The notes beneath the pieces were generated by a model. That model searched no databases. It had not been told where the DNA came from and worked only from the letters and a program-made list of their open reading frames with translations. A program made the translations under genes and the position numbers. Shown here one piece after another: positions 4,568 to 35,472 of a stretch of 64,000 nucleotides of DNA. This DNA is from Agelas oroides (lineage: Eukaryota > Porifera > Demospongiae > Agelasida > Agelasidae). Location of the stretch: the NCBI GenBank assembly GCA_949130485.1, contig OX422184.1, forward strand, positions 18,166,324-18,230,323, written 5' to 3'. Position 1 is the stretch's first letter. Every line of letters begins with the position of its first letter.

Positions 4568-4659
4568 GAGCTACGCACTATAAAACTGTCGCTATTTGGT
4601 GACCACTGTTATTGGTTTTTGTCTGCAATCAGTCTCGAATTAAGTCTTGTCCTGAAAAA

Positions 4660-14184: not shown

Positions 14185-14344
14185 GGTATAAGATAGAATT
14201 ACACTCTTTAGTAACTAACCCCTTATATTAAGGGAAAAAAACAGTGTACCCCCTACACAGTTTTTCCCCTTATTATAAGTGAAAAGGTTGTTCAAGGGAT
14301 AGTGTGTCCCACAGTTAGTAAAGAGTGTCATCTTCTACCAAACC
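14185..14344. mobile_element. 160-bp MITE with 9-bp target duplication
   Basis: Inverted ends with the shared words ACACTCTTTAGTAACT and AGTTAGTAAAGAGTGT are flanked by GGTCAATGC on both sides (14176-14184 and 14345-14353). Unit B has the unoccupied site GGTCAATGC once near 44787, which confirms the insertion borders. Confidence 0.85.
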
Positions 14345-14387
14345 GGTCAATGCTAGGAAAGTAAACTTATTAGATTTGAACTAACTA

Positions 14388-14848
14388 CCGTAGTCTCGCG
14401 AAAAAGGGCCCAATATATCAAATATCTGCCCACCCCCCATTATTGCTTCAAAGGTCTAAAGTTTACTCCAAAAAGTGCCCACCCAATTGACCTCGTGCGG
14501 AAAGTTTTCAAATGCAACATGATGCAAGGTTAGTCTATAGTTACACAGAAAATGATGTGATACTAATACAGTATCTAAAAGTCACTGTGGCAGCTTCTGA
14601 AAAATTCTGATTAGCTTTTCCACATGACTAGGTTTGCCAGTAAAATTAAAGATGCATGGAACTTCGAGTCCTTTTCCTGGAATGTTAGAACGCTGCCGCT
14701 TGTCTGTAACTTTGCATGTAATTGTGTTGTTCCTCTCCAAACGCTTTTTCGTGGTAAAATGCAGCAATGTTACAAATATCCGCCCACCCCCTTGTCTGAG
14801 CACAAAGTAATGTGTACCGCCCATCGGCCCTTTTTCGTGAGACTACGG
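14388..14848. mobile_element. 461-bp Tc1/mariner-type MITE with TA duplication
   Basis: Terminal inverted repeats begin CCGTAGTCTCGCGAAAAAGG on the left, with a near-identical inverted copy on the right. Both are bordered by TA. Unit B lacks the element at the matching position (near 44835). TA duplication and size fit a non-autonomous mariner-like element; the superfamily is inferred from the duplication only. Confidence 0.85.
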
Positions 14849-16922
14849 TATATACAGATTACAGAGTCAAGTTTAACCATATTAATATACCTGGCATTCT
14901 CTCTATCATCAATCTGAGGGGCGTAATCTTGCACTCAACTGCTATGCCTCTGTATTTTCTCATTGCTTCTACCCAAACATCACTGTCAATGATGGCACTC
15001 ATGACATCACTATTGGACAACATAGGGAGCATACTAAATATACAGGGTTACGTGAACATTAATGCGCACACTCCCTCTGTTTAATCACAACAGTGAGATA
15101 GGTATATTTGTAATTTTCATTAGTTTTGCTATTTTGGACAGTCCTGACAGAAATTTTGCTATTTTTGACAGAAATCGAAGATAAGTCTGTCGTGCAGTTT
15201 GATCTCACCACCACGCTCGAAGTGAACTGCCACTAAGGGTGGGGCTCACACTTTTTTTACTTTCACCAAGCAGACACAGTTATCAAGTACCTCACTTTCT
15301 TCTAAATTAGATACACATGGTGGAATCACTACCTTTATCACAGGCCATTGCTAACTTACGTGATAATTCCTGTCACTACTTATGATATATACAACAAGCT
15401 GCTCTTCTGGAAAGCTATGGTAAAGTCGGTGTAAATATACTTGTGGAGCATGGGACATATAGTATGAGTCTAACTGAGTCAATGCTACCTTTCCCACAAA
15501 CTTTAGACTCAAGCTAGTGCAAAAAAAGGGGAGAGGAGTATTAGCGAGTATAGGCAATGTACATGTTGTGTATTAAGTGAAACATACTCATGGCCTTTAT
15601 CAATGACTTCTGCAATTTCAACACTTTGAATATCTGCCCCCGACTTCAGCAGTATGTTGATGACTTCAGCCTGATGTTCATCACAAGCACATCGCAGAGC
15701 AGTTCTTTCCTGGAGAGAATGAAGCACACCAGCTTATGCATAGAAGCACAGCAAAAGTAAAGTAGAGTTTCTACTGTAGACTTCAAATTATTTGGCAACA
15801 GGTACATCAACAAAAACTGAAATACATGTTATATTTTGACTATAATGGCATTCTGCATGAACTCTGCAGTATGACCGATAAAAGCAAAACTGGTCTGCTT
15901 TAATGGTTAATTGATTCTACCTGATAATCTCGTAATTCAATGCAGCTTTTATTTACACCAATCAAGTATTCAACCAAATCTGCATGACCATGGCTGGCTG
16001 CAAGGTGAAATGGCGTTTCATCATTCGCATTCCTGAAGAGAAAATGATATTTGGTGTAAAATTGGGTATTTATTTATTTATTCATATCAGCTTCACCATC
16101 CTCACACCTCATTAAAGACTACAATTTTGCACACACAGTTGCGTGCATTCAGTACAATAGCACCTTTGTTATTCGAACATTATTCATCCAAATCCCCAAT
16201 TGTTCAGACATAATGTAGCAAATAATTCTGTAATGGTTAGCTTCCACAGAGTGCCATGGTGGCAAAACTGTATGCTTCTGTCAGTGTATGTATGAATGTA
16301 GGCCATGCAGAGTAGCCTCCTACGCAAGACAAATACATCCCCTGTCATCATGCAATACTATCCACTGCATTCACGATCTAAGCCATCATATGTACAAACT
16401 TGTGCATAGAATGCTTGTTCCACATTGTTCAACAGTTAGTTGATTAAATGACCTTTAGGTCCCAGTGTTACAACATATTGACAGGAAATGGAGGATTTTA
16501 GAACAGTGTTGAGTTACCTTACTTTCAAATTTGCCCTTGCATCCAGCAGAAAGCGCACCACTTTGTCATGCCCTTTGGCACATGCAAGGTGGAGGGATGT
16601 ATTGGAGTTCTGTTCCTCACAGATTCGGAGGATTCTAGGATAAGTGCACATCAACAGCTCCAACACCCTAGTACAGAAACAACAAAACAATGTTATGATG
16701 CCACACTGTACAAGCTACAGCACAAACATCTGAGAACATAAATGTGCACATTTCTACATGCTTATGCAATATAGACTCGGTGTGGAAAAATATCAAATAA
16801 AATGACATGGCTGTTACATAAGTTGAGGCTGAGGTGTTATGTAATCATAAATGAGCGTTTAAATACCAAACTGAGTCTTGTAGTGTTTAGACATAACTAG
16901 GCAACTATCTGAACTTCCAATG

Positions 16923-17115
16923 CCCATACAGAAATCACAAGGTTGTTACAAGGTTGTCACAAGGTTGTGACAACCTTGTAATTTTGGTTGTAACAACCTT
17001 GTGACCAGGTTGTTACAAGGTTGTGACAACCTTGAAAAAACCTTGGATTTGAAACTGTTTCTACCTGGTCACAACCTTGTTACAACCTTGTTACAACCTT
17101 GTTACAACCTTGTTT
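16923..17115. repeat. Left TIR (16923-16979) and subterminal repeat field
   Basis: After the 57-bp terminal inverted repeat, the word ACAAGGTTGT or its complement ACAACCTTGT recurs about a dozen times in both orientations, often as back-to-back palindromes. Such subterminal arrays bind the accessory protein in plant CACTA elements; here the binder is unknown, and the BEN protein is an obvious candidate. Confidence 0.85.
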
Positions 17116-17578
17116 GTAGGTTGTTCACTACCATGCAGGTACAATCACCATGCAACTACTACACAGTGTGTTGACAGTGTGTTGACAACTTAGTAATCAA
17201 GCCAAAGTCATATTTTTCGACAACATATAAATGCATGAATGAGTAACTGTTTCACGGTTCTTTCGGTTCCTTTTTCAGTTCTTCTTCCGTCTACAGTTGG
17301 CACATTTATCGTTAACTGCATCAACCAGTGTTGTTTTCGCAACTTCATATTTTGTCTGCACGTATTCTGTGTTTGCATGAAAGAAAGTGTTGTACAATGG
17401 TCATGCAATAAACAAACATAGGAACTGATAAGAGTCAACTCCCACATGGTTAAAGTGCTTTTTGTCTTGTCATTTCAACCCATGCAGGTAATTAACTCAC
17501 CCAGAACAAGCAGACGGCACAACATTTCCATTACCATGCCATCATATTTATGCAACCCCACAAGCACATATAAGAAAT

Positions 17579-17584
17579 TTTATT
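17579..17584 (-). terminator. Poly(A) signal of BEN gene
   Basis: AATAAA on the minus strand, 7 bp after the stop codon of the BEN-domain gene. Its position supports ending that gene here instead of splicing on into the channel exons. Confidence 0.6.
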
Positions 17585-17590
17585 CTATAC

Positions 17591-20500
17591 TTATAACTTA
17601 CTGATGCAAGCAGACAGGATGTCTCGATCCAGGGCAATGTTATGGCGAGAGCCATAGCAACTGGATATGGCCAGCTGCTCTCTAGTAAAAAACACCGAGA
17701 TGAGGTTTCGGATAAGTCTAGTAGCGGACCCGTTGCTCTCCCTTTCCGCTTCGTCCAGTTGCCTCTGGGTTAAAGTAACACCATACCCTGGCACCAGCTC
17801 AACCTTGCATGGCTCTACCTATATTGACAGAAATTAGAATGTATATGTGTATGCAAATATACATAAAGTTTCAACAATTATAAGAATCAATATAAAGACA
17901 TACCTTAACTGTTTGAAGCGAGGTGAGAGTGCTAAAATGACTGTGTTCTTTAAGCTCAGCAGATGGTGTCTGTAGAATAAGTGTAGGTAATATAACATAT
18001 ACACTGAGTTCCAGTATTTGTAACAATCTAGATACCCACCCTAATTGTTCTAAACGAGGTCGGAGTAGTGATGCAACTGAGTTCTTTGTTCACGGGAGAT
18101 GGTGTCTGAAATTAATGCAGGTATTAAGAAAATGCATATCAAGTTCCAGTATGGTACCTATTATAAATACTCACCTTAACCCTTTTGAACGAGGTGGGAG
18201 TGGTTAAACAACTGCGCTCTTGAACCTCAGCAGATGGTGTCTGTATAATAAGCATAGGTTGGTGATGCAAATGAAATATGCAACAGAAAAATATTTACTT
18301 TTATATCCAGGACTGTGTTAAGTATACCACATACTTACATGAGCCGGTGAGTCAAACTCTACCGATAAAGGACTCCAGGAAGGCTATATGGAATACAAAG
18401 AGCAATAAAGATGGACAAATTACAATTTTCTACTCAGCCCAACCTATACCATACACATATAGTTGCCCTCATAAGCTACCATACACATAGAGTTGTCCTC
18501 ATAAAACTAGTTGATTACTTGAGTCAGTGCATGACTATACAACTTCGTTGTATATAGTCTAGCACATAGAATCTGCTACACCAGGCCACCCAAATATAAA
18601 TATATATACTGTATAGTGGGAAATATATATACTGCATAGTGGGAAACTTTCAAAGGAGAAAACTTTCGCAAATTTTGAGGTTTTTGGCTATTCACGAAAG
18701 TTTTATCCACAGCATGTGTCCAACAACGGTGACAGCATATGGACCATGGATGTTGCAGCCGTGTTCCTACTGGCTAGTGCGGAGAGACTACCTGCTGGCA
18801 TTAAGGCACAACTTGTCCAATGGCAGCACCTGAAACTCCCTTGTACATGTGGTAGTCTCGAACGATCGTCTCTGTTGCACATGTAGCATCTTGTTGGTAC
18901 CAAGTGTTCGCTATCGAGCAGCACATGTGGCGTGAGGTTATTATTAATCTGTGGCCACACCCATGCACAATTGGCAAGTGCTCGAATCTTCCACGAAAAT
19001 TTTCTTCATGAAATCTTATTTTCTATCAATTCGCGAAAGTTTTCTCCCTCGAAAGTTTCCCGCTATACGGTATTCATGTATGTAGGTAAACCAGGAAAGC
19101 ACTAACAGGCCTACTTGTGATCTGGTTTAAGATCTCATAGCAAAAACAGTGCACAAGAACAGGCAGCTTGAGTAAGATAGAGTGTGTAATTTGAAAATGG
19201 TTGGAATTTACAGCCCGTACTAAAAACAGTAACATGCACTGCACCTGGTGCGTTGAAATAATTAAGCCATTGTTGCTAAGCATGTGACCAGGTGTTCAAT
19301 TTTAACCTTTTAACCCTGAGAGTGCCCATATGCGCCCAGAATTTTTACAACCTTTAAACCCGATAGTGCCCGAGATAGCTTCCAGCTATTTATCGCCACA
19401 GCTGCGCGTTTTTGAGTTATAAGCCACAGGAAGTCGATCGAAGCATAATTAGCCGGGGTGTCCTATAGGGACTTTCCCCGGAAATCGCGTTCGAAGTTTG
19501 CCTACCGATTGTGTTGAACTTAGCATTGTCACAGAACAGCTTGCATCCCACGGGCAACTGGTTCTACAGAATTGTTTCTAGCTAATCATCTAAACAACAA
19601 TGAAAACGTACCTTCGCTGGAAGTTTGGTCACGGATTTCCAATCATTTTCATTGGATAGCAAGTACCCGCTCTTCATCCATTTAAGCTTACTTGAACTTC
19701 ACTATCAACTCGTATGACTACTTCCTCAGTGAAGCAGGCTAGTTTTTGATTACGCTAAGCCTAACTGCCAACTTGTGAACTCAGCTAGTTTATAAGATAT
19801 AACGCTATGAATCATCATGATACAAAATCACCATTTTTTCAATATCTTGTTTCATGGCTACGGGGCAAAGGGTTAAGTATGGTTCAATAATTTTGACCAG
19901 ACTATGGGCTTTTATTTACACACCCTTACTCAAGCCTCCCATTCTTATGCGCTCTTGACCCTTAGCCTCGTTCCCAGGCTCTCCCCTCGCCTGGACAAAA
20001 AATAAAAACGGAGGGGGAGAGCCTGGGACCGATTCGCACGTGATATCGCGGCACGACGACTTTGCACTAACCATTAAATAACCAGAAACGTCACTCACGT
20101 GAAGACCGCGAAGGAGCCGCGAAGTACTCTCAGCTCAGGAGTTTGTTACAACAACTCGTTTATTGTTGTGTAGCTATGTTGGAGCTTTAAAATGTGGTTG
20201 TGAGTTTATTTAGTACGCCAGAGTGTAGCGCTAGCCAACTAAAGTCTTTCTTCATAGCCTCGTAGCAATTTTTTTTTAAAGCGGAACATGGTAACAGTAA
20301 ATAGGCAAAGTTTTTCCTACGTACTGGGTACTTCACCGTCACTGCTGTTTGACCCACGCCGAGGTCTCACCGACGCAGTCACAGCTCACTTGTTTCAGTA
20401 GTATATCATAGCTGTTCGAGTCAGCCAATCACATGGCTGCATAATTGCGTCACGACTTTTGTAATTATTGCTGTGACGTCTACATGCCGCGATATCACGT

Positions 20501-22965
20501 GCGAATCGGTCCCAGGCTCTCCCCCTCCATTTTTATTTTTCGTCGGGGCGAGGGGAGAGCCTGGGAACGAGGCTACTTGACCCTACCCTCAGGCATATCC
20601 TGTGATGTACACGGATACTTATATACGTGTACAGCAATGTCCAAAAATGGTAGAAACACTAACTTACTTCCACATGAATGTCGTTCTTCTGCAGGGCTTC
20701 AAAGCTTGAATTTGATACTGTATTTTTCGTGACCATGATGGGCGATGTAGCTGGACATGAATTAAGTGTTTAAAATACCAAATAAGATAGTGTCTTACAT
20801 GCTTTAGTAAATGCTCTGAGTTTTTGTATTCTTATAGAAGCCCATGCGCTAAAATACAACTTAGGCACAAAACCCATACAAGTGCAGAAGCCCACCCTAC
20901 AGCCTAAAGCCCCAACCTGGTCATATTAGGCAGACTTCATTAAAAATGCATAGTTTTCTGCCTACGCATAATTTCCCCTCCAAAAAAGGGCTGTGTCATT
21001 GTGCTGTAGTATAGGTTTTCCGGTATTTAACTACACATTTTGTTCTCTGCAGACCCCTTTTTCTCTGAGCACAAGCTACTTTAGCCACCAACTTTGATAC
21101 AAGGTCACTCACCTCTCTCTTGTAATTGTTTTCTCAGCCTCTCTATGAGCTGTTGCTGTTCCTGCAGTTGTTTGTGAATGCCCATTTGTTCTTCTTCCGA
21201 GTCCGAATCAGAGAGTGGAACCAATCTACGCTTAGCTTTAAAGATTTCCCTCGCTCTCATCTTGGCTGCTTCTATTTTAGCCTGAGCCTCAACCTTTTTT
21301 GCAGCGCTCTTAGATCCAGCAGGCTTCTTAGGTTTTTTGTCTTTGATTTTCGGTCGATCCAACTTAGCCTTTTTCTTGATTGGACTATATGTGTCTTCAG
21401 TTGTTGAATCAACCTCTGATTCACCTAGCTTTAGTAGATCATCTCGTGTGACTTCAAAATTTATGAGTGATGTACATGTTTTATTCAACTGCTGACGATC
21501 ATCTGCGTAATGAACAAAGTACACCACACACAAAACATACACCACCCAATGAAAACTTATGCTCTAATAACAGGTACTTTGGGTTTTAGAAGCTGTCAGG
21601 CTAACCAAAATTGGACCATAAATGTATTTCTTCTACTCTCAATAGTGCGTTCCTGACACCAGTTTGGGACACTGTATAACGCAGCATGGAATAACTTTGA
21701 TTGACCGGAAATTAAAATTGCAAGTGTGTGGAACTGCCATCCAGCGAGGCAGCTCTGCTACCGCACTTTGTATCTGAAGTTGCAGAGGAGCTACAAATAG
21801 TGGGTAAGCCTTGTGGGAGACCTCAATGGTTACAAAGCTAAAAAGCCTTGTATGAGCTAAGAAGGGATGTAGGTGGGCTACACTAAAAAGATTGTCCAGA
21901 TTGACTTACAAAGCGGGGTCCGTTCCCAAGGCTTGAAACTGCCTCCGTGAGCCTGACTTTATGAATGGAAGTCGTTTTATCACGCTCAATATTTGTGCAC
22001 CTAGCATGCATGGGCTGCAAGTGAGTAAAAGACAACTTCGCCACCGTGGCTGGCCCTACTCTTGCGTGGCCACACCCCATTCCGCAGGAGAGGGAAGAGG
22101 TCTGGTAACTTCTTTTACAGAGTTTGTCTTGTCGCTCTGTGCAGTGTGTGGCCAATCACAGCATAGTATTCTGTCACATGAGTGCTGTTATCACAACTTC
22201 AATAGGAAATTACAAGGTGTAAATCAACTGTGAAACCACAAGCAGCTGCTGAGGCAGTCTTCTGCAGCCTTAATGTTGCTGCTTGCACAATGTGAATAAA
22301 TGAAATTCCTGTGCAACAAGTGGCTGTAGTGAAAGTTACCAGACCACTTCCCTCTCTTGCGGAACGGGGTGTGGCCACGCAAGACTAGGCTGGCCCAACA
22401 GTGTTTACTGGATTTAGCCCTCATGCAATCCTATTGTTATTCCCATCAGTGCCTAGTTTTCATATCAACAACTATGATCCACTTCTGCTCGTCCCCTTCT
22501 TACTGGATAGCATGGCATTAATTTTAGCAGCAGGACTAGCTTTAGGGCAACAGTCGAGGTCTTCAACAAATTTTTTAGCATTTGTAGTCCCTCTACAACT
22601 CCAGAATACAAACAGTAGTACCAGCATTGGCTACCTCACCAGATGGCAGTTCAACACGTGCAATGTCGATAATTACAAAGCAATTTCATTTCCGGTCAAT
22701 CAAAGTTATTCCGTATTTCGCGTTTTACAGCGTCCCCACCAACTCGCCTGCCATCAAGGACTCTTACATATACAGTTGGTAAGACAACACACTCACCAGA
22801 TGTTTGCAGTAGCTCGGCATCGTAAAACTTCCGACCGTACTTCACCTTGGCGTTGGCACCAACACACACACGACTGTCCGCGTGTACGGCTGACAGGGGA
22901 ACGACCCCTACACTTTCATCTTCCAGCCAACGCACCAAGACGAATCTCTGTTTTTCGGTTGGCAT
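17591..22965 (-). CDS. BEN-domain protein carried by the transposon (370 aa)
   Basis: Exons join in phase: 22965-22797, 21502-21113, 20750-20668, 18383-18339, 18240-18175, 18105-18040, 17969-17904 and 17818-17591, giving 1113 nt with no internal stop. Residues 1-56 (MPTEKQRFVLVRWLEDESVG...) form a small beta-rich domain typical of the N-terminus of some invertebrate BEN proteins. A lysine-rich region and a Gln/Glu coiled coil follow (about 90-185). Three tandem 22-residue repeats come next, each encoded by its own 66-nt exon (TPSAEV.., TPSPVN.., TPSAEL..). The last exon encodes a BEN domain (GVTLTQRQLDEAERESNG, RLIRNLISVFFTREQLA). BEN domains bind DNA or mediate chromatin contacts. The gene is head-to-head with the transposase, which suggests a partner or regulator role for the element, as TnpA has in CACTA elements. 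The DNA target is not known. Confidence 0.85.
18632..19070. mobile_element. 439-bp TA-flanked MITE nested in BEN intron
   Basis: Left end CTGCATAGTGGGAAACTTTC and right end (inverted) CCGTATAGCGGGAAACTTTC are flanked by TA. The terminal words match the element at 42389-42776, so both belong to one family. A second partial left end (CTGTATAGTGGGAAA) sits just upstream at about 18609. Confidence 0.75.
19314..19872. mobile_element. Possible piggyBac-type MITE with TTAA borders
   Basis: TTAA|CCCTGAGAG at the left and GCAAAGGG|TTAA at the right give the TTAA duplication and CCCT/AGGG ends expected of piggyBac-like elements. The inverted repeat beyond the first bases is weak, so this call is tentative. 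It lies in an intron of the BEN gene. Confidence 0.4.
19963..20575. mobile_element. 613-bp long-TIR element with 9-bp duplication
   Basis: Inverted arms of about 90 bp begin TAGCCTCGTTCCCAGGCTCT at each end with only a few mismatches. CTTGACCCT flanks both sides (19954-19962 and 20576-20584). Long TIRs with a 9-bp duplication fit a Mutator-like non-autonomous element. It is nested in an intron of the BEN gene. Confidence 0.85.
22057..22387. mobile_element. 331-bp MITE with 9-bp duplication in BEN intron 1
   Basis: The ends TACTCTTGCGTGGCCACACC and (inverted) TAGTCTTGCGTGGCCACACC continue as inverted repeats for roughly 60 bp. GGCTGGCCC flanks both sides (22048-22056 and 22388-22396). It is a non-autonomous element by size, without coding capacity. 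Confidence 0.85.
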
Positions 22966-23212
22966 GACGCAGATGTACAAGACCGAAAGACTTGAGATGA
23001 CAAAACCAAGGGCGCCCTTGACAAAACAGACCAACAGTAACTTAGCAGCTGTGATATCGACCGCCTAAACTACACGAGCTTTTAGCGCATGCGCAAAAGT
23101 AGACTTTCACAACGAGTTCCGTACCCAGACTCCCGCGGGTCCCGACTCCCGCACTTTTTCGGGTGGGTCTGGGAACGGGACTGTTCCTCGTCCACATCTT
23201 CAGCCACTGACC
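22966..23212. promoter_or_regulatory. Head-to-head promoter spacer of BEN and transposase genes
   Basis: Only 247 bp separate the two start codons on opposite strands. The spacer includes a GC-rich inverted repeat (CCCAGACTCCCGCGGGTCCC and a partly complementary GGGTGGGTCTGGGAACGGGA). This is consistent with one bidirectional promoter driving both element genes. No TATA box is evident. Confidence 0.6.
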
Positions 23213-26200
23213 ATGAAGTCTACGTACAATGAAAGGTTTACTTTTCCTGATCCACTTGCACTCCAGTCAGCCAGTCGAACTACCAGGTACAGAGCTAAAA
23301 GGAGACGAATGGGCACGGAGGAAGAATCCTCAGTGGCATCAACCTCTAGTGCTAGCCCTGGGTGTTCATTTTATATGGAGGACGGAGAGACTGGAACATA
23401 TAATTACGTTGGAGAATCATGTCAGTTTCAGGATCCAGACTCAGGTGTGTATGACATTACAACTTATCCACAGTCTCTTGAAGCTGAGATACTACCAGCG
23501 GAAACGCTCAGTGATTATCACCTGGGGAACTCTGATGATGAGGAGTCAGAGCACTCCAGTCCTACCAGACCATCTGTGCTAAGTACAGAACCTCTGTATG
23601 AAGGGTCGTCTCTCACAGTACCTACAAGCAGTGTGCTCATCATGAAATATGCACTGAGACACAGTTTAACCCAGGAGGCCCTGGCAGACTTGTTACGACT
23701 TGTAAAATTGCACTGTCCATCACCCAACCAATGTCCGAGCTCTTTGTACCAATTCAACAAAGAGTTTCGTGACTTGCATTACCCAATTGTTTTGCACCAC
23801 TTCTGTAGTGCATGCCTCCATGTTGTTGAAGTTGAAAGCTCTGAAATGGAATCGAAAATGTGTACCAATCCACACTGCAACAGTGAGTTATCAGCTCAGA
23901 ATTCTGTTTCTTCATTCATTGAGGTACCAGTTGACTGCCAACTGAAGACAATTCTTGAACGTGAGTGATGTTAAAGGATTTAGTGTCTCTGCATGCTATG
24001 ACCAAAAAGACTGGCTTCATACATACCAAATTTCGTGTACTTCTGCTAGACGTTTAGAAGCCTAAATAAAATCAACAATTCAGCAGATCCTGCATGCACA
24101 AAGCATTGTTTGGTAGAACAACTAGAACAACTTTAACTATTTAGGAATGATTCAGATGTTGTATTTTTTATGTGTACATATTTCCATAGGTGATGGTATT
24201 TTCAGCACTATCCTTAAGCGCATGAATCTCAGAAAGGGGCAAGATGGATGCTACACTGATATCTATGATGGGAAAGTATATCAGCAACTAGTATCCACAG
24301 GTTTCCTTGCAAATGGAAACAACATCTCACTGATGTTTAACAGTGATGGAATTCCAGTGTTCCGATCATCTGGCTTTGCATTTTGGCCACTCTACCTGTT
24401 GATTAATGAGCTTCCATATCGAATGAGGTATTAAGTGATGGTATTTTGCATGACTGTCTACCCTTAAAGGCATTCAAAGGAGAATCGAATTCTTGCATGA
24501 CTGTGTTCATGGCTCAACCTAGTACACAGTGTGTGTTAGGTTCTTTATTACCACAATTACAGTACTACAATCAGTTCACTGCCCAATATGGACTGTCTAC
24601 AACATTCACATATATCAAGGGTATCACTGTAATTAAGTGACTGTGCTCTGTGCGGTGAACAAATAGTCTTTGTTGTACCCTGTCTACCCCTAAAGGCATT
24701 CAAAGGAGAATCGAATTCTTGCTGGTCTTTGGTATGGCTCTATAAAACCCGACATGACCCTCTTTTTAAAGCCAATGGTGCAGTCACTAAAGAAGATTTA
24801 CGATGAAGGTGAGTTATCTGATAACTGTGTTCGGCAAAAGCAGCAAAACACCTGAGTACTGGCATGTGAATCAATACTACTTTATGCTTTTATGCTACAA
24901 CACTGCATGGCAACGGTTCTATGCTAACTTACCCACAGGAATTTTTCTTCATAGTAACCATGTTCACGTTAAACCCCAAGATGTGAGTTAAGGTTCATTA
25001 AAATGAATGAAGTTAATGTCATTGCCAGGCCATAACCAAAGGACAGTTAAAAGTAGTAATTTAGAAGCTTTAAGGCTTTTGTCCGAAGTTACTACTCAGT
25101 GATTATAGGTATCTTGGGGTGTGGTTTAGTTTATTAGTTGAAGATAATTAGCTTGCTTGGTGTTCTGTAGGTATTTCCCTATCACCACCTGGCCATAACT
25201 CCATTGTGTGCCATGTTGCTCTGGTCGGCACGACATGTGATTTGCCAGCAAAAGCAATGCTATTGAACTTTGTACAGTTCAATGGATTTTACGGATGCTC
25301 CCGTTGTTTGCAAAAAGGTGAGTAAATATAGGACCTGGAATACTACATGTATAATTATGTTATACGCATACTTATTAATAGACTTCAAGTAGGCTGATGT
25401 ACATTGAACTCCTTCCCAAATAGCTATGTCTAATGTACTTCACAGTACATGTATTTGTACTACAGTACCATCTGGATAGCATGACTTGCACACATTTACT
25501 ACATTTAGGGAAGACACTTCACTTAGGGGAACGTAGCCACACCCATGTTTACCCATACAATGAGGTAGACCCATGTGGGCCAACCAGGACACATGTTAAC
25601 ACATGTCAGCACATGGAAGATGCAAGTGCATCCAGTTCACCTGTAAGTTATTATTGAGAGACTGGTATATGTGAAGATATGAAATTCATGTTTGCGTACA
25701 TATTACAATTATGCAGGTTTTTGGAGTGAAGGGGCCATCTTGGCTATGTGTCATTCCTGGGTTTGATATGATTGATGGGATGTCTATGGATTACATGCAT
25801 TGTGTCCTCCTCGGTGTCTGTAGACTTCTTCTCCGCCTGTGGCTGCAATCATGTCATCACAAAGAGCTGTGGTACATTGGTAATCAACTATCAGTTCTTG
25901 ATGATCGTCTTTGTAGGATCAAACCTCCTAATGAGATCCAGCGTACACCAAGGAGTATGGCAGTGACACTGAAGTTTTGGAAAGGTTAGTGTGTCAACTA
26001 TTTGGCTAGCCTTATTAATTATATAATGGACTGACTTTCCCTTCATTAGCACATGAGCTACGAGCTTGGCTCCTTCACTACTCTCCAGCTGTCCTACACG
26101 GTGTCCTTCCGGACTCTTACTACCAACACCACCTGCTGTTGGTAGAAGGAGTCTTTCTTCTAATGAAGGAGCAAGTGTCTGGTGATGATGTTTCTCAAAG

Positions 26201-27503
26201 TTCACAACTTTTGCAGCATTACGTTCTCCTGTTTTCACCACTGTATGGTAAAAAGCTTTACTGTCAGTCTGATGTACTACCATTCTGATGCACTGTAGTA
26301 GTTGTCACAGTCTGTGCACTTCTGTTTGTTTTTCAGGGGAAAGGTACATGTCAATCAACATCCACAGCCTGCTTCATCTTCCCGAAACTGTTAAGAATTT
26401 GGGGCCTCTTTGGGCGCATTCTTGTTTTGCTTTTGAAGCTGCCAATGGGGAACTACTTAACCTTTTCCATGGATCACAAGCAGTGGAAAAGCAGGTACTT
26501 TGAAAAGTCAACAATATACAAAAGTTGTAGGCATTAACTAATGAGAAGGTAGAGTATAATAGCCATCTGTATGTGACATTGGAACCAGGAAATAACTTAG
26601 TCTGGGGATAGTGAATTACTAAGCTGCAAGCAAGTGTGCAGGTGGAACCGATCTATTATTGTAAGACCACCATACAGTGCAGTGGTGAAAACACAGTTTT
26701 ATATCAGTTGTGAAGTGTTACTTCATGATCTCTTACTCTATAGGTTGTCAACCACATCAGTGCACTGCACAAAATGCCTTCTCTTGCCAGCTATGCGTTA
26801 CCACCTAGTAGTCAACAGGAAGATCTGTACAAAAGAATGAATCACACAGGAAGATACTTAAGGTACCTCTACACTGCATATTTTGTATATCAATTAAATA
26901 ACTTGTGTATTCATGCAGGAAAGACCACAACACAAGTGAGGGAAACAGTGTGATAGGAAACCCACAGTGTGGGGTACTTTCACACAGAGAAGAGTCACTC
27001 CTTGAGAAGGCAGGCATTGCTGTTCCCTCTACTGAAGTCTTGTTCTATCCTACCTTACTTTTACCAACTAATATGGTTATCACAGCTCGATCAAAGTCAC
27101 GAATGACAAAACGTGACAACTCATGTCTTGTTTACATTGATCAGACAGATTCTGTTTGCTGGGGGATTCTCCAGAAGATCTTTGTTTTCAAAAACAGTAC
27201 TGCCTCTGGATACTACTGCCTAATATCAGCACTATTACCAACCTCCACTCAGCTGTGTACTGATGACATCACTCATGCACAACTACACAAGCACCTTGTT
27301 GCTTGCGAACCCCCAAGGTGTGTACTTGCACCATCCACCAAAACATAATACATAACTGTTCTGTTTCTTTCTATCCTAGCCTTGAACAGCAGATAATGAT
27401 TTCATGTTCCAAGGTCCGTGATAAGTGTGTGCTAATGGACCTCACCACCAACCTTGGACTAGTGTTTGTGAGCTGCTTCCCAAACACAATTGAGGTTGAC
27501 TAG
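23213..27503 (+). CDS. CACTA/EnSpm-like transposase (Tnp2-type core plus DUF4218-like region), 881 aa
   Basis: Eleven exons join in phase with no stop: 23213-23960, 24190-24427, 24696-24808, 25171-25317, 25509-25642, 25717-25984, 26050-26247, 26337-26494, 26744-26862, 26919-27317 and 27380-27503. The N-terminal 250 residues are acidic and low-complexity, then carry a Cys-rich zinc-ribbon-like segment (CSACLHV...CTNPHCNSE). Recognisable metazoan transposase words follow: NSDGIPVFRSS..WPLYLLINELPYRMR, ENRILAGLWYGS.KPDM, FNGFYGCSRC, MDYMHCVLLGV, HSLLHLPETVKNLGPLWAHS and FAFEAANG. D302, D485 and E649 are plausible DDE-type catalytic residues (inferred, not aligned). The protein should cut and rejoin the element ends in the nucleus. 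Full openness suggests recent activity. The 3' end is convergent with the kinase gene, 111 bp apart. Confidence 0.9.
24455..24496 (+). repeat. 42-bp duplicate of the transposase exon-3 acceptor region
   Basis: Identical but for one base to 24681-24722. It contains the polypyrimidine tract, the AAAG acceptor and the first 27 bases of exon 3, placed 226 bp earlier in the intron. Use of this decoy acceptor would meet TGA after nine codons. Confidence 0.85.
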
Positions 27504-27614
27504 ATTGTGTATCTACATGTCAATCACTATCATTGTACACTGCTTGACAGATACTGTTAAACATAACATGTGAACAGATCTATACATGTGCAAGAATATA
27601 GAATTAAACTACTC

Positions 27615-29115
27615 TTATGTACATGGAATCCTTCGTAGTATAGTCTCTAAAGTGTTTGCTATACTACAGGCAGAAGGTCTCAACTTCAGCTTTTCAGAAG
27701 TACACCTACTAACACAATGTTCTAAAAGCTCCTTCACATCAACCCCAACACTTGTTGCTATGACTACGACGCTCCTATACACCTTGTTTAAAATCTTTCC
27801 TAAAGAGAAAATGTCACTCATCATGGTTCGCTTCATTATTCCATCAATGACCTCTGGTGCAATGTGATGATGTTCACAATAATACTGGTGCTTCTCTAAT
27901 TGTGTGAGTTCATACTTTCTCCCATCATTTTGGCTTGTTGCTTTGCCAAAATCTGTGATGACCACCTGGTAGTCAGATGCAAGACTTGGCAGTGAACTGC
28001 CTTTATCAAGTGATCTTGTCAGTAAGATATTGTCACTCTTGATATCATTGTGGATGATCTTTGCATCTTCATGTAAATATCGTATTGCCTCGACTATTTG
28101 TGCGCATAAAACTAACCACATCTGACATTCAGATATGTTTTCACGATGAATCAGTTCTTTTTGTAGTGTTATAGACTTTCCATCTATACCATAGTATTGC
28201 ATTACTATGCAATATGGCTCAGCCGAAGTACAAACTCCAAAAATAAGAGGTAAATACGGGTGGCAAATTCTCAGTAGAATGCTGGCTTCGTGGTAAACAC
28301 TCTCAGGACGTGTTTGTGGTAAAAACTCCTTCACAGCAACATGGATCCCCCGGTAAAGAAGATGTTTCACTACACTAAATGATCCACGACCAACATACAA
28401 CTCCAAGTCTGAAGCAGTCTCATCCGGGGTGACCAGTAATGACTGATTTATCAATGGAACACCCATTTGGGAGTGGGACACTCTGCATTGTTTTGTACAA
28501 AGTTGAAGTTTTTGTGCTTGTAGCTGCAGTTGCTTTCGCTGATCAAGCTCATACCTCCACCTTTCCCAGAATGATTTAGCCATTTTTCGATTCAGATGTG
28601 ACTGCTGTTCAAGTTCACTTCGATACAACCTTTCCTTAGCTAGTTCCTTTGTCAGTTGATCCTTTTCCATATGTTGAAAATGTCTCTTTCTACGTTTTCT
28701 AGAGTTTCGCATGCAACGTTTTTCAGATAGTGTGTTCTTTCGACTTTTACGGTTGGTGTGCTTCACTGCATAAAGAAAATATGACTGGTTCATTGCATGT
28801 GTCAGTTTTAGGCTACCCATGTGTATCTCTGCTAAGTAGCTGTAGTATTAGACCTGCTTGTAATAGCTGTCACATAAAGAAAGCTAAAAATGCTCTATCT
28901 TTGTATTCCTTTCTTTTTCTCAGGTACGTGTAGGCTGTGAGACTAGTCCTCAACCCGCCCCCCCCCCAACAAACACACACACACAGTCATCCTCTGGCCC
29001 CAAACACAAGCAGGCATCTTCCAACCACAACATGAAAATTACGTCTTAAGTAGCTACCTTTATGTAGGGAATCAGCTTTGCTTCGTAATGTCTCGAATTC
29101 AGACCCGTCCTCCAT
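27615..29115 (-). CDS. Protein kinase carried by the transposon (402 aa)
   Basis: Exon 1 (29115-29058, MEDGSEFETLRSKADSLHK) splices in phase to exon 2 (28765-27615) through GTAGCT...TGCAG. Residues 38-48 are strongly basic (RKRRKRHF). Residues 52-110 are a charged coiled coil. The kinase domain runs from about 140 to the C-terminus: glycine loop VGRGSFSVV, lysine in VAVKEFL (K165), alpha-C glutamate in YHEAS (E179), catalytic loop HNDIKSDN (D260), DFG (D291) and HIAPEV. All key residues are present, but the usual HRD arginine is Asn, making it a non-RD kinase of the Ser/Thr or TKL type. It lies fully between the TIRs, convergent with the transposase, so it is cargo or an accessory regulator. 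No substrate can be read from sequence. Confidence 0.88.
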
Positions 29116-29412
29116 GGTTGCTAACTTCGCGGCCTTTGCCGGCATTGCCTGCAGTCACGTGATCTATGAAAGATCATGCGTTCGTCGTCGGTCATTGTCC
29201 CATGCCAGGTGCGTGCCAAGCATGTGCACACAACTTGAGTGGCTATTCAGCAATCCATCGTAATCCTCTTGAAGGATGACTTTCAGGCACCAAGTGCCTC
29301 TTGGAGTGGATACGTTTTTGGAGTTACTAGGAGGTAGTGGTCGATATTATCTTGTGTGCATGGGCTGACTTCAGCAGTGCAGCAGAATGAGTTACTGATG
29401 CGATAAGATGAG

Positions 29413-29416
<4 letters not shown>

Positions 29417-29461
<45 letters not shown>

Positions 29462-30289
29462 CCCTACTCGTGTGAGACCATTGCTATCAAGATGACACAT
29501 CTTTCGGTAGCATTCTGTCAAGATGACGCATCTTTCGACAGGTGGTCAGCAATCTGTTCCTGCGTTTGTACGTCTGTGTGTGTGTGTGTGTGTGACCCTA
29601 CTCGTGTGAGACCATTGCTATCAAGATGACACATCTTTCGGTAGCATTCTGTCAAGATGACGCATCTTTCGGCAGGTGGTCAGCAATCTGTTCCTGCGTT
29701 TGTACGTCTGTGTGTGTGTGTGTGTGTGTGTGTGACCCTACTCGTGTGAGACCATTGCTATCAAGATGACACATCTTTCGGTAGCATTCTGTCAAGATGA
29801 TGCATCTTTCGGCAGGTGGTCAGCAATCTGTTCCTGCGTTTGTACGTCTGTGTGTGTGTGTGTGTGTGTGTGACCCTACTCGTGTGAGACCATTGCTATC
29901 AAGATGACACATCTTTCGGTAGCATTCTGTCAAGATGACACATCTTTCGGTAGCATTCTGTCAAGATGACGCATCTTTCGGCAGGTGGTCAGCAATCTGT
30001 TCCTGCGTTTGTACGTCTGTGTGTGTGTGTGTGTGTGTGTGACCCTACTCGTGTGAGACCATTGCTATCAAGATGACACATCTTTCGGTAGCATTCTGTC
30101 AAGATGACGCATCTTTCGGCAGGTGGTCAGCAATCTGTTCCTGCGTTTGTACGTCTGTGTGTGTGTGTGTGTGTATGTGACCCTACTCGTGTGAGACATT
30201 GCTATCAAGATGACACATCTTTCGGTAGCATTCTGTCAAGATGACGCATCTTTCGGCAGGTGGTCAGCAATCTTTTCCTGCGTTTGTAC

Positions 30290-30320
<31 letters not shown>

Positions 30321-30585
30321 ACCCTACTCGTGTGAGACCATTGCTATCAAGATGACACATCTTTCGGTAGCATTCTGTCAAGATGAAGTATCTTTCGGCA
30401 GGTGGTCAGCAATCTGTTCCTGCGTTTGTACGTCTGTGTCTGTGTGTGTTTGCCTGTGTGTGTGTGTGTGTGCGACCTTACTCGTGTGTGACCATTGCTA
30501 TCAAGATGACACATCTTTCGGTAGCATTCTGTCAAGATGACGCATCTTTCAGCAGGTGGTCAGCAATCTGTTCCTGCGTTTGTAC

Positions 30586-30619
<34 letters not shown>
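29417..30619. repeat. Compound minisatellite: eight units each ending in a (TG)n tract
   Basis: Units of roughly 135-170 bp start ACCCTACTCGTGTGAGACCA and end GCGTTTGTACGTCTG followed by 9-20 TG pairs. Within each unit the word AAGATGACRCATCTTTCGG occurs twice, and in the fourth unit three times. The array begins with a long (TG)n at 29417 and is followed by a nested element that splits off a degenerate last unit near 31203. Open frames here are by-products of the repeat. Confidence 0.9.
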
Positions 30620-31160
30620 CTTGTCCCCATGCCCCTCCCCCTGAGGAGAGGTCTGGTACTCGCGCATATGCAAAAAATATTCCAGGTTTTTTTAAGGATT
30701 CGTAAAACAACAAATTTTTACTATCCATTAGGTGCGTATACGAACTGTGCATGTTCGTTTCACATAAAGTGAGAGAGTGGCGGCTTCTCAGGTGATTCGC
30801 TGTTGGCTAAGGCTTAATCGCCTGTCATTTCTGTTGTATAGGCAGATCATGTTCAAGATGAAGCCACTACAAGCTGTGTAGGAAGGGAGGTGGCTACCAA
30901 TGGGCTTTTGTTACTTTGCTTGATTGTAAGTTTTGGAAAATGATTACTACCATATCTGAAAGTAGTATTCTGGTAGGATTCTGCAAGTTAAATTGCTTCT
31001 GGAGTCCATTTCAAGGAAACTCAGCATTCATGTTTAGTATAATATTGCGCATATGGATAAGGGAACAAAGCTGTTTACGGAAAATGTAACGGAATTTTTC
31101 CGCATGCACAAACAGTGAGTACAAGGCCTATCGGGGGGAGGGGCCTGGGGACGAGGCTAG
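30620..31160. mobile_element. MITE-like element inserted into the TG minisatellite
   Basis: The right end, read inward, is TAGCCTCGTCCCCAGGCCCC, and the left end CCTTGTCCCCATGCCCCTCC is its imperfect inverted copy over about 60 bp. The terminal word matches the 613-bp element at 19963-20575, so they are probably related. (TG)n lies on both sides, which hides the exact duplication. Confidence 0.6.
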
Positions 31161-31553
31161 TGTGTGTGTGTGTGTGCGTGCATATATTCAAGCCTGTTGT
31201 TACATATCTCTGACCATTGCTGTTGAGACGACTCATCTTTCAGTTGAAAAAGGTTGTTGCTATAGTCTAGGGTTGTGATGAAGCTCAACAGTGTATTTAT
31301 GCACCTACCCCATTACAACATTGTATGAATATTCATCTATTGTATGTACACTTGATCATTTTGGTTATCTAGCTGAAACATCACTGCTTCATGTTGTGTA
31401 TGTGTATATTTAGGTCTGTTGTCTTGGCATGGATCCAGTTTAAGTGGCCATTTAAAGACATACACCGAATCCCTCCAACTGACTCGATCCAGTCAAACTC
31501 ATCTCATATTTCTTTAACATGTCCAACCACCCCATTGTTTTTATACTGTTCAG

Positions 31554-31670
31554 GAGTTGACTTTGCAGGCTCTGGCAGTGAATGGCATGAAAACTAGAAA
31601 CCAAAGAACTGAATATTTTCTAATTGTTGTTGCTGTGGTAGCTATTGCTGTGATGTCCATTTATTTGTAA
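31554..31670 (+). CDS. Candidate terminal exon encoding a C-terminal membrane anchor
   Basis: After a good pyrimidine tract and TTCAG acceptor, 38 codons end in TAA and finish with a single hydrophobic helix (YFLIVVAVVAIAVMSIYL), as in tail-anchored proteins. No convincing upstream exon was found. A phase-compatible open segment at 30842-30925 lies inside the nested MITE. The exon may be chance. The rest of 31161-32193 shows only TG repeats, a degenerate minisatellite unit and AT-rich sequence. Confidence 0.25.
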   Translation, partial: ELTLQALAVNGMKTRNQRTEYFLIVVAVVAIAVMSIYL

Positions 31671-32193
31671 ATTTATTTTATGGCTGAGACAATTACTTGA
31701 TAATTATTTGATTTTTTGATTTGTTGTTAAAAATAATTACTGATACTTCCTGTGACAATACATATTATGTGGTATTCAGTATCAAAAACCAACAGTGCTA
31801 ATATTACATTTGATTCTGCATGACATGCAGTACATTCAGTGATGAACCTTACACAAGAGTATCTGCAGCTACATCGAAGTGGTACGAAGTATTAGTAGCT
31901 TAGTAACACATAAAACTCTATCTTCAGTGTGTCAAAGCCAATACAGACCATTAACTGTCTGTTTCAACCCTATTATTTTACCTCCGGGGTCTCATCAGTT
32001 GGCAGGGAGGATAGCCTAGTCTGGTTTACCTTGTAAGAGAGCTGTAAAGCTCATTCAAAACACATTTCTGGAAAACTAGCTGGACTAGAATTGTGAAAAT
32101 ACAGACTATAATTAAATCTTTCTGACAACCATGCTTTGAAGCTATGTCACAAGATTGTCGTAAGAATGTAGATACACTTCACAACCTTGCACC

Positions 32194-32401
32194 AAGGTTG
32201 TAACCAGGTGGTATATTTATTACCACCTGCGGACAATCACCAAACAAGGTTGTAACCAGGTGGTATATTTATTACCACCTGCCGACAATCACCAAACAAG
32301 GTTGTAACCAGGTGGTATATTTATTACCACCTGCCGACAATCACCAAACAAGGTTGTAACCAGGTGGTATATTTATTACCACCTGTCAACAATTTCCAAA
32401 C
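32194..32401. repeat. Four 52-bp tandem hairpin repeats next to the right TIR
   Basis: Units start at 32194, 32246, 32298 and 32350. Each has AAGGTTGTAACC, then the hairpin AGGTGGTA-TATTTAT-TACCACCT, then GACAATCACCAAAC. They occur only at the right end, so the element's two subterminal regions are asymmetric. Confidence 0.9.
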
Positions 32402-32486
32402 AAGGTTGTCACAAGGTTGTGACAAGCTGACAAGGTTGTCACAACCTTGTGACAACCTTGTAACAACCTTGTGATTTCTGTATGGG
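32402..32486. repeat. Right subterminal repeats and TIR (32430-32486)
   Basis: The last 57 bp are a perfect inverted copy of 16923-16979. Preceding bases repeat ACAAGGTTGT/ACAACCTTGT words. The following TG (32487-32488) is the right copy of the target duplication. Confidence 0.9.
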
Positions 32487-33216
32487 TGGTGCGACAGCTT
32501 GATTTATTGTTGCCAATGCAGCATCTGGCTAATTCAAATCAAAATTTATCAGGGCCCAGGCATATGTGGGGACTGATTTACCATATAGCTGGAAATATTT
32601 TGGTGGTTTGGCCCCAAACCGACCGCAAAAAAATATTGGCGGAATTTAAATTTGGCAGTGGCGTCGTCTCAGGTCTGTTTATCACGGAGCAACGCCGTCT
32701 CTCGCTTGAGGCACTTGAACAAAGCCATGAGTTCGCAAATTTACAAGAAATAAAACTGGCAGCGTCCTAGCGCCGAGCTAGCTACATGTACAGCTCGTGT
32801 AGAGTTGTGCCGGATGGGGCCCGAAGAGTGCTACTGCACGCATTACGTCATTATGCGTTGCATACGAAATAATATTGGCAGATTTTAATTTGGCAGTTTC
32901 AACCTCGACCACCAAACCGCCAAATTTAATTCCCCGTCAAATTTTTTTGGGCTATATGTTATATAGAAATACATAAAGGGGTCGGTCTTTCCCTATAGTT
33001 ATGTGTAGCCCGGACCACCATCCAACACCTTACTGACTGCATGAAGGGCAGGGTGCAGTAATTACTTAACTGGGGATGAGTTAATTTGACTTTAGCATAA
33101 TTGTACAAAGGCACTTGCACAATTTACCAGGGCCTAGTCCTAAGTAGGCCCTGGTATAGTGATGCCACTACTGCACAAGATTATACCCAAGTAGAATCAG
33201 TAATACATGTACTCAC
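32487..33216. other. Intron of channel gene 1 right of the transposon, with a MITE-like relic
   Basis: Noncoding. It matches 46933-47460 in gene 2. Inverted segments rich in TTGGCGGTTTGG (from about 32580) and CCGCCAAATTTAATTCCCCG (to about 32960) suggest an old non-autonomous element that was present before the tandem duplication. Confidence 0.5.
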
Positions 33217-34126
33217 TCCATTTGTCCATTTTCTGCAGCAACATGCAGCGGTGTCTTTCCGGCATCATTCTTCTTCATCAGCTGACTATGAAATTCACTA
33301 TATGGATCCTTCTCCAAACGCTTCTGTACCTCCTCATGAATTTCATGCTTTGTATTCATTTTCTTGCTGGCCTCAAATTCCTTCTTAATTTTCAGGTACA
33401 ACGGATCACTACCCAAAAGCATTTTCATCAGCTTGATGTTTCCCTTCGAAGCGGCAATGTGAAGTGGAATGTTTCCATCCTTGTCTGCCTTGCACAAGAG
33501 ATTATCTGGCTCCATACAACGACGTGTCATGTCCAGGATTTTCTGCAAAAAGCATACAGGAAGGTTGTCATAAGTTTCTTTCAGTATATGTCATCCAAAT
33601 TTGGACAGCAAATATATCACATTAACTTTAATTGCCATGCCCGCTTTGGTATATCACATGACCAAGTATGACATCACTATTCCCAAAAGGGACTAAAAAC
33701 ATTTCTTCTCCTTCAGGTTGAAAAAGTGTGAGGCAAACATTTTACCAAGATTTTGGGTGGGAAACAAGACCATGTACCACAAAACGAACTATGGCCAAAA
33801 AATGTGATGGTGTGCACTAATTAGAAAGTCACCGTTTTCTCGAAAAATGAATGGATTCCTATTTTCCCATCCAGGATTTTTAGTGAAGAGGATATGCTTT
33901 ATCTCATAAACGGGGAAAAAATTGGAAGCTAAGGTGCTAAAAAAGGTTTTCGGATAAAATTGGATTAAACTTCTTGCATGTACCTTCACAGCAATGCTGT
34001 GTCCAGCTTCCACAGACAGGAACAAAGCGCTCCTTTGTTGTTTATCTACACGGTCCAACCTGTCTCCACTGCCTTCTGAAAGGCATTCTATTGCATCTTT
34101 CTTCCCATAAGCTGCAGCTGTTAGCG
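33217..34126 (-). pseudogene. TRPA-like channel gene 1, truncated 5' part (ankyrin exons)
   Basis: Exon 33542-33217 encodes ankyrin repeats (KTPLHVAAENGQM) and ends in the phase-2 donor that fits exon 16667-16518 on the other side of the transposon. The preceding exon starts inside a deletion: homology to the intact exon stops at about 34126, after LTAAAYGKKDAIECLSEG, and the sequence switches directly to the upstream region of 331-aa copy B. The two 5'-most exons and the normal acceptor are gone, about 2.9 kb relative to units A and C. A TTTAG is created at the junction, but no start exon is evident. Confidence 0.75.
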
Positions 34127-34271
34127 CTAAATTCAAGTATATGAAGTTAAATTGCGTATAGAGAGAGTTAAAATCTACATTCTGGGCAATCCCATATTTT
34201 GATTCTCATGAGCTAAGTCCGTACGTAAGGAGATTCCCTTTCAGTACTTCGCGTGACTTTGAAAAAACAGA

Positions 34272-34291
34272 TGACGTAAGTGCTATATATA
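34272..34291 (+). promoter_or_regulatory. CRE-like site plus TATA box of 331-aa gene, copy B
   Basis: TGACGTAA (34272-34279) and TATATATA (34284-34291) are preserved although the upstream intergenic region is deleted about 150 bp away. An 8-bp addition in the leader distinguishes this copy. Confidence 0.5.
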
Positions 34292-34391
34292 GAGCTACGC
34301 ACTATAAAACTGTCGCTATTTGGTGACCACTGTTATTGGTTTAATAGTTTTTGTCTGCAATCAGTCTCGAATTAAGTCTTGTCCTGAAAAA

Positions 34392-35387
34392 ATGAGTTCC
34401 AAAACATGGAGTACAGAAAATGTCTTGCAATCTGTCACGAACTCTCCATTTATTGTTCAAATTCCTGAACAGCTCCTCGAACTTGGCAAGAAAATAGATG
34501 TTCTGGTAGACGATGTATACGCCGGTTTTTGTGCCTTGGATGATAGTCGGATTAGTGCAACCTCTCTCGCAAGGCATAGCATACGCGTGAATTTGGGCAC
34601 TGCTACTAGAAATGCATTCTACTTTGTGAACAAGATCGACGAATTTATGTGGTATGCACAGGATTCTGAAAGAATGGCGAAGGTGACAGCAGATGTAAGA
34701 CAAGGAAATTTTGGGGAGCTGGATCTCTTGCTTCGTCAGTTGTCTGATTGTTTGGAACAAGCAATGGAATACTACGCCATTTTCAAAGAGTCCTGTAATC
34801 AAGCCAAAAGAGAGTGTGAAACAGGAGCTGAGATATGTGCATCCAAGTCAAGAGAAACTCGGTTGCGCAAGAAAAAAACGCAAATAAAAGGTGGTGTACT
34901 GGCAGGAGCAGGATTAAGTGGTGCGGCAGCTGTTGCAGCAGGAGGTACTGTAGCATCTGTTGTTGCTGGGATTTTTACTGCTGGAATAGGTACAGTTGTT
35001 GGCTTAGCTGTCACTGCTGGTGTTACAGCTGTAACCTTGGGAGGTGTAGGAACCACAGCTGCTATAGCCACTGTGGTGGTTGCAAACAGCTGTGATGACT
35101 TACTAAAGAAATTTCAACAATTGGGTAGGGCATTTGGTATGGCAGCAGACTCTGCAGATCAGCTGATTGAAACAGTGAGTGATTTCAAGTATTCAGTGGA
35201 CACAGCCCATTGGCAAGTGTCCACTATTCAATGGTCTTACGAGAGGAGAGCATTTGAGAATGTTTGCAGTGTTCTAAATGAACTGAGCACAAAGTGCAGT
35301 AGTATCTACTATAATACAACATCTGCAACCCGAAACAAATTGCAGAAGATTCTAAAAGAGAAAATGAATATAGAGGTTGCCTACTAA
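34392..35387 (+). CDS. 331-aa glycine-zipper-like protein, copy B
   Basis: Same length and architecture as copy A, with no frameshift or stop. Private differences are Leu at 158, Ala at 179 and Ser at 303. Its 3' flank diverges soon after the stop and leads into a 1.8-kb insertion absent from units A and C. The surrounding unit is the most rearranged of the three, yet this frame stays open, which hints at selection on the gene. Confidence 0.8.
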   Translation: MSSKTWSTENVLQSVTNSPFIVQIPEQLLELGKKIDVLVDDVYAGFCALDDSRISATSLARHSIRVNLGTATRNAFYFVNKIDEFMWYAQDSERMAKVTADVRQGNFGELDLLLRQLSDCLEQAMEYYAIFKESCNQAKRECETGAEICASKSRETRLRKKKTQIKGGVLAGAGLSGAAAVAAGGTVASVVAGIFTAGIGTVVGLAVTAGVTAVTLGGVGTTAAIATVVVANSCDDLLKKFQQLGRAFGMAADSADQLIETVSDFKYSVDTAHWQVSTIQWSYERRAFENVCSVLNELSTKCSSIYYNTTSATRNKLQKILKEKMNIEVAY

Positions 35388-35472
35388 TTTGTGCCTTAAA
35401 TTTATGTACTAGCTTTTTTTATATTTTGTTGTTCTTGTCTCAGTATTATTCATGCAGTGTGATGAATATACT

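Follow-up and report, generated by a model that had tools for sequence, protein, structure and literature searches.

A stretch of 64,000 nucleotides from the genome of the sponge Agelas oroides (GenBank assembly GCA_949130485.1, contig OX422184.1, positions 18,166,324 to 18,230,323), here called the window, contains at positions 16923-32486 a segment of 15,564 bases with matching inverted ends, within which lie a transposase gene, a protein kinase gene and the exons of a BEN-like accessory gene. The locus raises the question of what kind of element this is, and of whether it has moved in the recent past. The reading proposed here is that of a complete cut-and-paste DNA transposon which inserted recently and belongs to the animal branch (TRC) of the CACTA (En/Spm) superfamily. 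The BEN-like protein and the kinase may have roles in its activity; the probability of this reading is put at roughly 0.86.

Ends of the element and its empty sites

The first 57 bases of the element are the reverse complement of the bases leading up to 32486 (57/57 identical when the letters of the window are compared), and we infer that a perfect inverted repeat of this length in 64 kb is not due to chance. The flanking letters are CCAATG followed by CCC on the left, and GGG followed by TGGTGC on the right, which places TG on either side. A preliminary description of this DNA had proposed a complete transposon with terminal inverted repeats (TIRs), ends fixed to the base at 16923 and 32486, and a TG duplication. 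These proposals hold: the repeats run from CCC to GGG, both flanks carry TG while the empty site described below has a single TG, and all 12 further copies in the genome for which both ends are in hand likewise start with CCC and end with GGG.

The window belongs to a longer tandem array. Units A, B and C are wholly or partly inside it, and further units follow on both sides; the element occupies unit A. The sequence to the left of the element (2211-16922) matches 50010-64708 in unit C with 99.35% identity, that to the right (32487-35476) matches 64707-67692 with 99.37% identity, with exactly two bases, TG, common to both matches. Unit C has the best empty site, at coordinate 64707/64708 (about 18,231,031 on the contig), 708 bp past the end of the window. 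When the flanks of the element are joined with one TG and compared with unit C, the match is unbroken over 66 + 101 = 167 bp, and there are five mismatches in 600. Over the full alignments, the left flank (14,729 columns) shows 49 substitutions and 47 gap letters, and the right flank (2,990 columns) shows 15 and 4, respectively. A and C are the closest pair in the array, and C is the closest sister of A.

The corresponding site is empty, with a single TG, in four out of four paralogous units (B at 46932, C at 64708, D at about 77715 and E at about -530). The empty site originally put forward was that of paralogue B (46923-46942). No element is present there, and one of the 20 bases differs, as stated, but it is not the best site: over longer matches the identity of B is only about 88-90%, and immediately upstream of the site B carries 10 additional bases (CTTAACAAGC). 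A secondary deletion at the join at 46933 was also considered and rejected: with all four paralogous sites empty, no such deletion is needed.

The base-exact empty site in a near-identical duplicate argues for a recent insertion, and the occupied A and the empty others are most simply accounted for by a single insertion into A that followed its separation from C. It is very improbable that the element predates the duplication that gave A and C and was lost from C by precise excision or gene conversion. Next to the site, A and C do have in common a difference of 10 bases with no counterpart in B, D or E, which marks them as recent sisters and would allow C to have lost the element; set against this, the other four sites are all empty with a single TG, C is unbroken over the 167 bp, and a single insertion into A explains everything. 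Excision of CACTA elements, moreover, usually leaves footprints. There is also some chance, though a small one, that A and C represent a single locus, whose two haplotypes the assembler placed in tandem, in which case the element would be a heterozygous insertion. The 64 substitutions in about 17.7 kb of aligned sequence are within the allelic range of many animals, and A and C are the closest pair of the array; yet a single 26-Mb contig holds both, separated by the more divergent unit B, and two haplotypes would leave the nature of the element and its ends unchanged. On the preferred reading, of a single insertion into A, the near-identical empty duplicate means that a 15.6-kb animal CACTA element has moved recently, and it fixes the ends and the 2-bp duplication without recourse to a consensus.

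Transposase, termini and size

When the exons of the transposase gene are spliced by hand, the product matches Pfam Transposase_21 (PF02992) with 36.8 bits (E=3.2e-9, cut-off 28.6); single exons give no Pfam match. Splice-like donors and acceptors are visible by eye at several of the exon borders. Motif I is complete (ISLMFNSDGIPVFRSSGFAFWPL, 24324-24392), and the frame continues with DLPAKA..CSRC, that is, D-PA-K then CxxC (25239-25307); with MDYMHCVLLG (25786-25815), which matches box A, L/V/I-D-X-L/M-H-X3-L-G, except at the first residue, where the search pattern allowed M; and with HSLLHL (26363-26380) and then FEAANG (26432-26449), the region to which we assign the catalytic E. Motif I, box A, the CxxC pattern and FExxNG are in order, and a six-frame scan of the whole window finds each of them once, while H-x3-4-H has 77 matches in the same scan and is without weight alone. 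CSRC and HSLLH, followed by FEAANG, give the C(2)C + H(3-4)H layout of the CMCT clade, which is defined between the second D and the last E (PMC12730594). Over the last 216 residues of the transposase, the best relatives elsewhere in the genome are 40-43% identical; relatives of the transposase are located, among other places, at C11:3161298, C2:14706167 and C1:23817000.

The Transposase_21 domain, CCC as the first three bases of the TIR, the 2-bp duplication, motif I and CXXC are the features by which TRC elements are recognised, and by these features the element belongs to the animal TRC branch. Its termini are of the form CCCAT, and it has neither the terminal bases nor the 3-bp duplication of plant-type CACTA elements. 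The preliminary description had remarked that a CCC terminus and a 2-bp duplication do not match textbook CACTA ends. This is correct with respect to plants, where CACTA ends and a 3-bp duplication are reported (PMC4158355), but the same combination was already published for animals, in the TRC elements of the CACTA superfamily described in 2006 by DeMarco and colleagues (PMC1636069), and again in 2015 for Hydra Spongebob (PMC4298943). That the ends fit no known CACTA pattern and represent a new type of terminus, an idea that the contrast with plant elements alone might encourage, is rejected on these two reports and can be given next to no credence.

The likeness to SmTRC1 and other animal TRC elements extends to CCC ends, 2-bp duplications, Transposase_21, motif I, CXXC and the D-X-L/M-H-X3-L-G box, and to the 54-bp TIR of SmTRC1, which has an internal repeat (PMC1636069). 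The differences are that the named elements are shorter, at about 5.2 kb in Tribolium and 9.2 kb in Aedes, that the first residue of box A is L, V or I there and M here, and that the word kinase is absent from that paper (PMC1636069). Hydra Spongebob_HMa / EnSpm-4N1_HM likewise has CCC ends and 2-bp duplications, but its consensus is 5.8 kb and its transposase was not exactly definable by its authors (PMC4298943). Plant CACTA (En/Spm) elements share a CACTA-type transposase accompanied by a second protein, and differ in their ends and duplication as already noted (PMC4158355). Fungal transposons that carry TET/JBP genes, some of them of the CMCT clade, are also CACTA-related, with an additional enzyme gene and the C(2)C + H(3-4)H motifs; their cargo is a dioxygenase, as against the kinase here (PMC12730594). 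Relative to the TRC elements as these sources describe them, what is new is the cargo of a kinase and a BEN-like gene.

Inside the TIRs, the exact 9-mer CAAGGTTGT or its complement ACAACCTTG occurs at 22 sites in the element, 11 near each end. All 22 site starts are confined to element positions 16-182 and 15259-15541, and a scan of the whole element found no exact site between positions 191 and 15258. Such arrays resemble the subterminal binding arrays that are a feature of maize Spm. They also bear a likeness to the internally repeated TIR of SmTRC1 (PMC1636069).

The element was initially called very large for an animal cut-and-paste element. The length of 15.6 kb stands, but it is less exceptional than it appeared. 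Two nested repeats and a minisatellite (Table 1) swell the element, and in the red alga Chondrus crispus enlarged En/Spm families of 16-20 kb with four to five open reading frames have been reported (PMC6431247), so that size alone is unremarkable; these families are alike in size class and in having additional open reading frames (PMC6431247). The first nested repeat (about 613 bp) is found in at least 42 other places in the genome with 93-97% identity, among the matches listed (40 of 3866 candidates scored), and on this account has probably been active recently. It is very abundant, with long inverted ends and 3866 candidates at first look. The second (about 542 bp) is found in at least 39 other places with 68-76% identity, again among the matches listed (40 of 274 candidates scored).

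Table 1. Features of the element and its insertion sites, in window coordinates.
Feature	Position	Strand	Remarks
TG target-site duplication, left copy	16921-16922		confirmed against the empty site in unit C (L029)
Left TIR, 57 bp, starts CCCATACAGAAATCACAAGG	16923-16979	+	57/57 against the right end
Left subterminal array, exact 9-mer CAAGGTTGT / ACAACCTTG, 11 sites	16938-17112
BEN-like exon, presumed to end the accessory gene	17591-17818	-	join to the other exons assumed
Nested high-copy repeat, resembling a miniature inverted-repeat transposable element (MITE)	19963-20575		inverted ends of about 91-93 bp
Accessory gene, second exon, lysine-rich with coiled-coil-like stretch	21108-21497	-	open frame 21105-21563
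Accessory gene, first coding exon, starts MPTEKQRFVLVRWLEDESVGVVPLSA	22696-22965	-
Multi-exon transposase gene	23213-27348	+	approximate exon borders, placed by hand
Protein kinase gene, 410-residue open frame	27615-28847	-
Minisatellite, 134-140-bp unit with TG runs	29417-30618		about 1.2 kb
Second nested repeat, MITE-like	30618-31159		inverted ends of about 60 bp
Right subterminal array, 9-mer CAAGGTTGT / ACAACCTTG, 11 sites	32181-32471		part inside a 52-bp tandem repeat, 32193-32417
Right TIR, 57 bp, finishes ..CTGTATGGG	32430-32486	-
TG target-site duplication, right copy	32487-32488
Unoccupied site in paralogue B	46923-46942		second-best empty site

Relatives with CCC ends in the genome

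A search of the genome with the first 101 bases of the element gave 83 matches, one of which, on C17, is 95% identical over the whole query. The C17 place was considered as a second full copy and rejected, as it matches only element positions 1-863, 1782-2083, 3654-3981 and 3982-4041. Twenty loci (L009-L028), comprising weaker matches of this search and the C17 copy, were read, and duplications were assessed in 21 copies including that of the window; both ends are in hand for 13, and one end was recognised in the other eight. All 13 copies with both ends (the window, L010, L011, L014-L018, L020-L022, L026 and L027) have 2-bp target-site duplications, and a 3-bp duplication fails in nine out of nine copies placed by script. 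The duplicated letters are TG in the window, TA in six copies (L014, L015, L016, L020, L022 and L026), AT in two (L018, read by eye, and L021), and GA, TT, CT and CA in L017, L027, L010 and L011, respectively. The outer-end pattern occurs at 41 places genome-wide, as against none for the reversed pattern, and by our own count 26 of these 41 form 13 convergent pairs, that of the window included. Among the loci read, the 12 relatives with both ends recognised are 2.8-6.4 kb long.

These CCC-ended loci are presumably non-autonomous relatives, and the element in the window is a candidate autonomous partner of the shorter ones in the same genome. Fragments of the first accessory exon (20-27 residues, 56-76% identity) are present in five CCCATATAG elements (L016, L018, L024, L025 and L027), with weaker ones in L014 and L015; in the genome-wide search such fragments were too weak to reach E 0.001. 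L014-L022 and L027 form a family of 4-6-kb CCCATATAG elements, some of which carry a piece of the accessory gene. Two longer convergent pairs of CCC ends were seen on C11, one enclosing about 12.95 kb (C11:5048239-5061191) and the other, with unequal ends, about 9.9 kb (C11:3296830-3306757).

The accessory gene and the kinase

The preliminary description had also counted two genes besides the transposase, and two are found: a BEN-like accessory gene and the kinase. The three minus-strand exons of the former are assumed to belong to one gene on account of their shared strand, their order and the architecture known from BEN proteins. The BEN-like exon weakly matches the NAC1 chains 8yzs and 7bv9 in PDB (E 0.041 and 0.053), NAC1 being a protein that contains a BEN domain. 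In comparison with the C17 copy, the proportions of synonymous (pS) and non-synonymous (pN) differences in this exon are 0.211 and 0.050 (57 codons). The second accessory exon has weak DUF4550 matches, below the cut-off. A genome-wide search with the frames 22696-22965 and 21108-21497 found no place other than the window's own, and the idea that the BEN-like gene is a multi-copy host gene was rejected on the same ground.

The kinase frame matches Pfam Pkinase (PF00069) with 92.7 bits (E=3.3e-26, cut-off 31.7). The motifs VAVK, HND, DFG and APE are visible in it, with HND in place of HRD. In PDB it finds BTK, TAK1 and MLK kinases (best 5e-12). Among the best 102 of 150 candidates in the genome, the closest other kinase, and the one that stands out from the background of general kinases, is 44% identical (C2:8074763, locus L037) and the next 31% (E=4e-9). 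A reverse search with the C2 relative matched, at E 0.001, no place but its own and that of the window kinase. The two proteins also share N-terminal stretches outside the kinase domain, of 14 residues at 64% and 30 at 43%. A transposase fragment 1.9 kb upstream of the C2 relative is 27% identical to the window transposase (E=1.25e-7) and matches places also matched by the window transposase, for example on C23, C2 and C9; a weaker C-terminal transposase piece, which contains a stop, is 1.3 kb away (E=0.039). The fragment has 74 matches in the genome, which cannot be counted as 74 transposases, since most of the weaker ones cover only about residues 136-179, apparently an unrelated repeat. As an observation on the locus itself, the CACTA-type fragment and the decayed kinase follow each other on the same strand (L037:1220-4330, C2:8072219-8075326), and the stretch after the kinase (L037 4209-4607) looks helicase-like. 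Comparison by eye with both transposase searches put no transposase place near any of the 48 remaining kinase places listed in the genome search. Between the window and L037 kinases pS is 0.794 (saturated) and pN 0.373 (166 codons), values that would be expected had the protein been under selection during much of their divergence.

It is quite possible, at somewhat under even odds, that this copy alone captured the kinase from the host, as Pack-type cargo that plays no part in transposition, and that its neighbour at L037 is a coincidence or a second capture. The kinase is a single open frame in the element with one intact copy found, the 20 CCC-ended loci have no kinase match, and the L037 copy is decayed; on the other hand, no close parent gene was found among the candidates scored, and the closest relative adjoins a CACTA-type transposase and shares the short N-terminal stretches. 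We regard as most likely that the kinase is a passenger or a regulator long carried by the CACTA elements of this genome. The more specific suggestion, that it is resident in CACTA-type transposons of the lineage, was kept across the split of the two transposase lineages, and serves the element, for example by switching the activity of the transposase or the BEN-like protein or by acting on host repair, is doubtful; its odds are lowered slightly because the L037 kinase lacks part of its domain and its transposase is missing from the matches of the window transposase. The transposase and the BEN-like protein would be its first candidate substrates. Should the kinase be a true gene of the element, transposon control of its own movement or of host repair through phosphorylation becomes testable; if it is mere cargo, animal CACTA elements move an intact enzyme gene. 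We know of no signalling enzyme encoded by CACTA elements. Among the papers listed, a literature search found no kinase in a CACTA element; neither this nor the listings for BEN domains in transposons establish absence from print.

The BEN-like protein may have a part like that of TNPA in maize Spm, in which case it would read the CAAGGTTGT arrays. Transposase and BEN-like protein would then assemble on the ends, and the element would be excised and inserted at a target site opened by a cut with a 2-bp stagger. Several points weigh against the overall reading, of a recently inserted TRC element with these gene functions. The BEN-like frame scores 17.3 bits against Pfam BEN (E=0.0055), below the cut-off of 23.2 bits, hence the term BEN-like; the three accessory exons are presumed to form one gene; and the binding of the motif, like any role of the kinase, is proposed from sequence. 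One full-length copy was found in the genome, so that movement of the whole 15.6-kb unit is argued from one insertion, and none of the 20 loci L009-L028 has a transposase or kinase match at E 0.001. At L037, the kinase is in pieces in three frames and has no stretch matching residues 107-182, the ATP-binding part included, while the transposase fragment has no Pfam match and is not among the 61 genome matches of the window transposase, and the ends of the element there were not found.

Elsewhere in the genome, 19 of the 50 listed kinase matches fall at C7:9.2-9.8 Mb, a probable kinase gene cluster. Around the element, ankyrin repeats occur in the tandem array, which numbers at least five related units and spans the window (1-64000) together with about 20 kb upstream and 30 kb downstream (L029-L032, L034). 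A hydrophobic frame at 40849-41358, which has no Pfam match, is reminiscent of TRPA-type channels. A Pfam Ank match lies on the minus strand just beyond the element, at 33216-33590 (E=7.4e-11).

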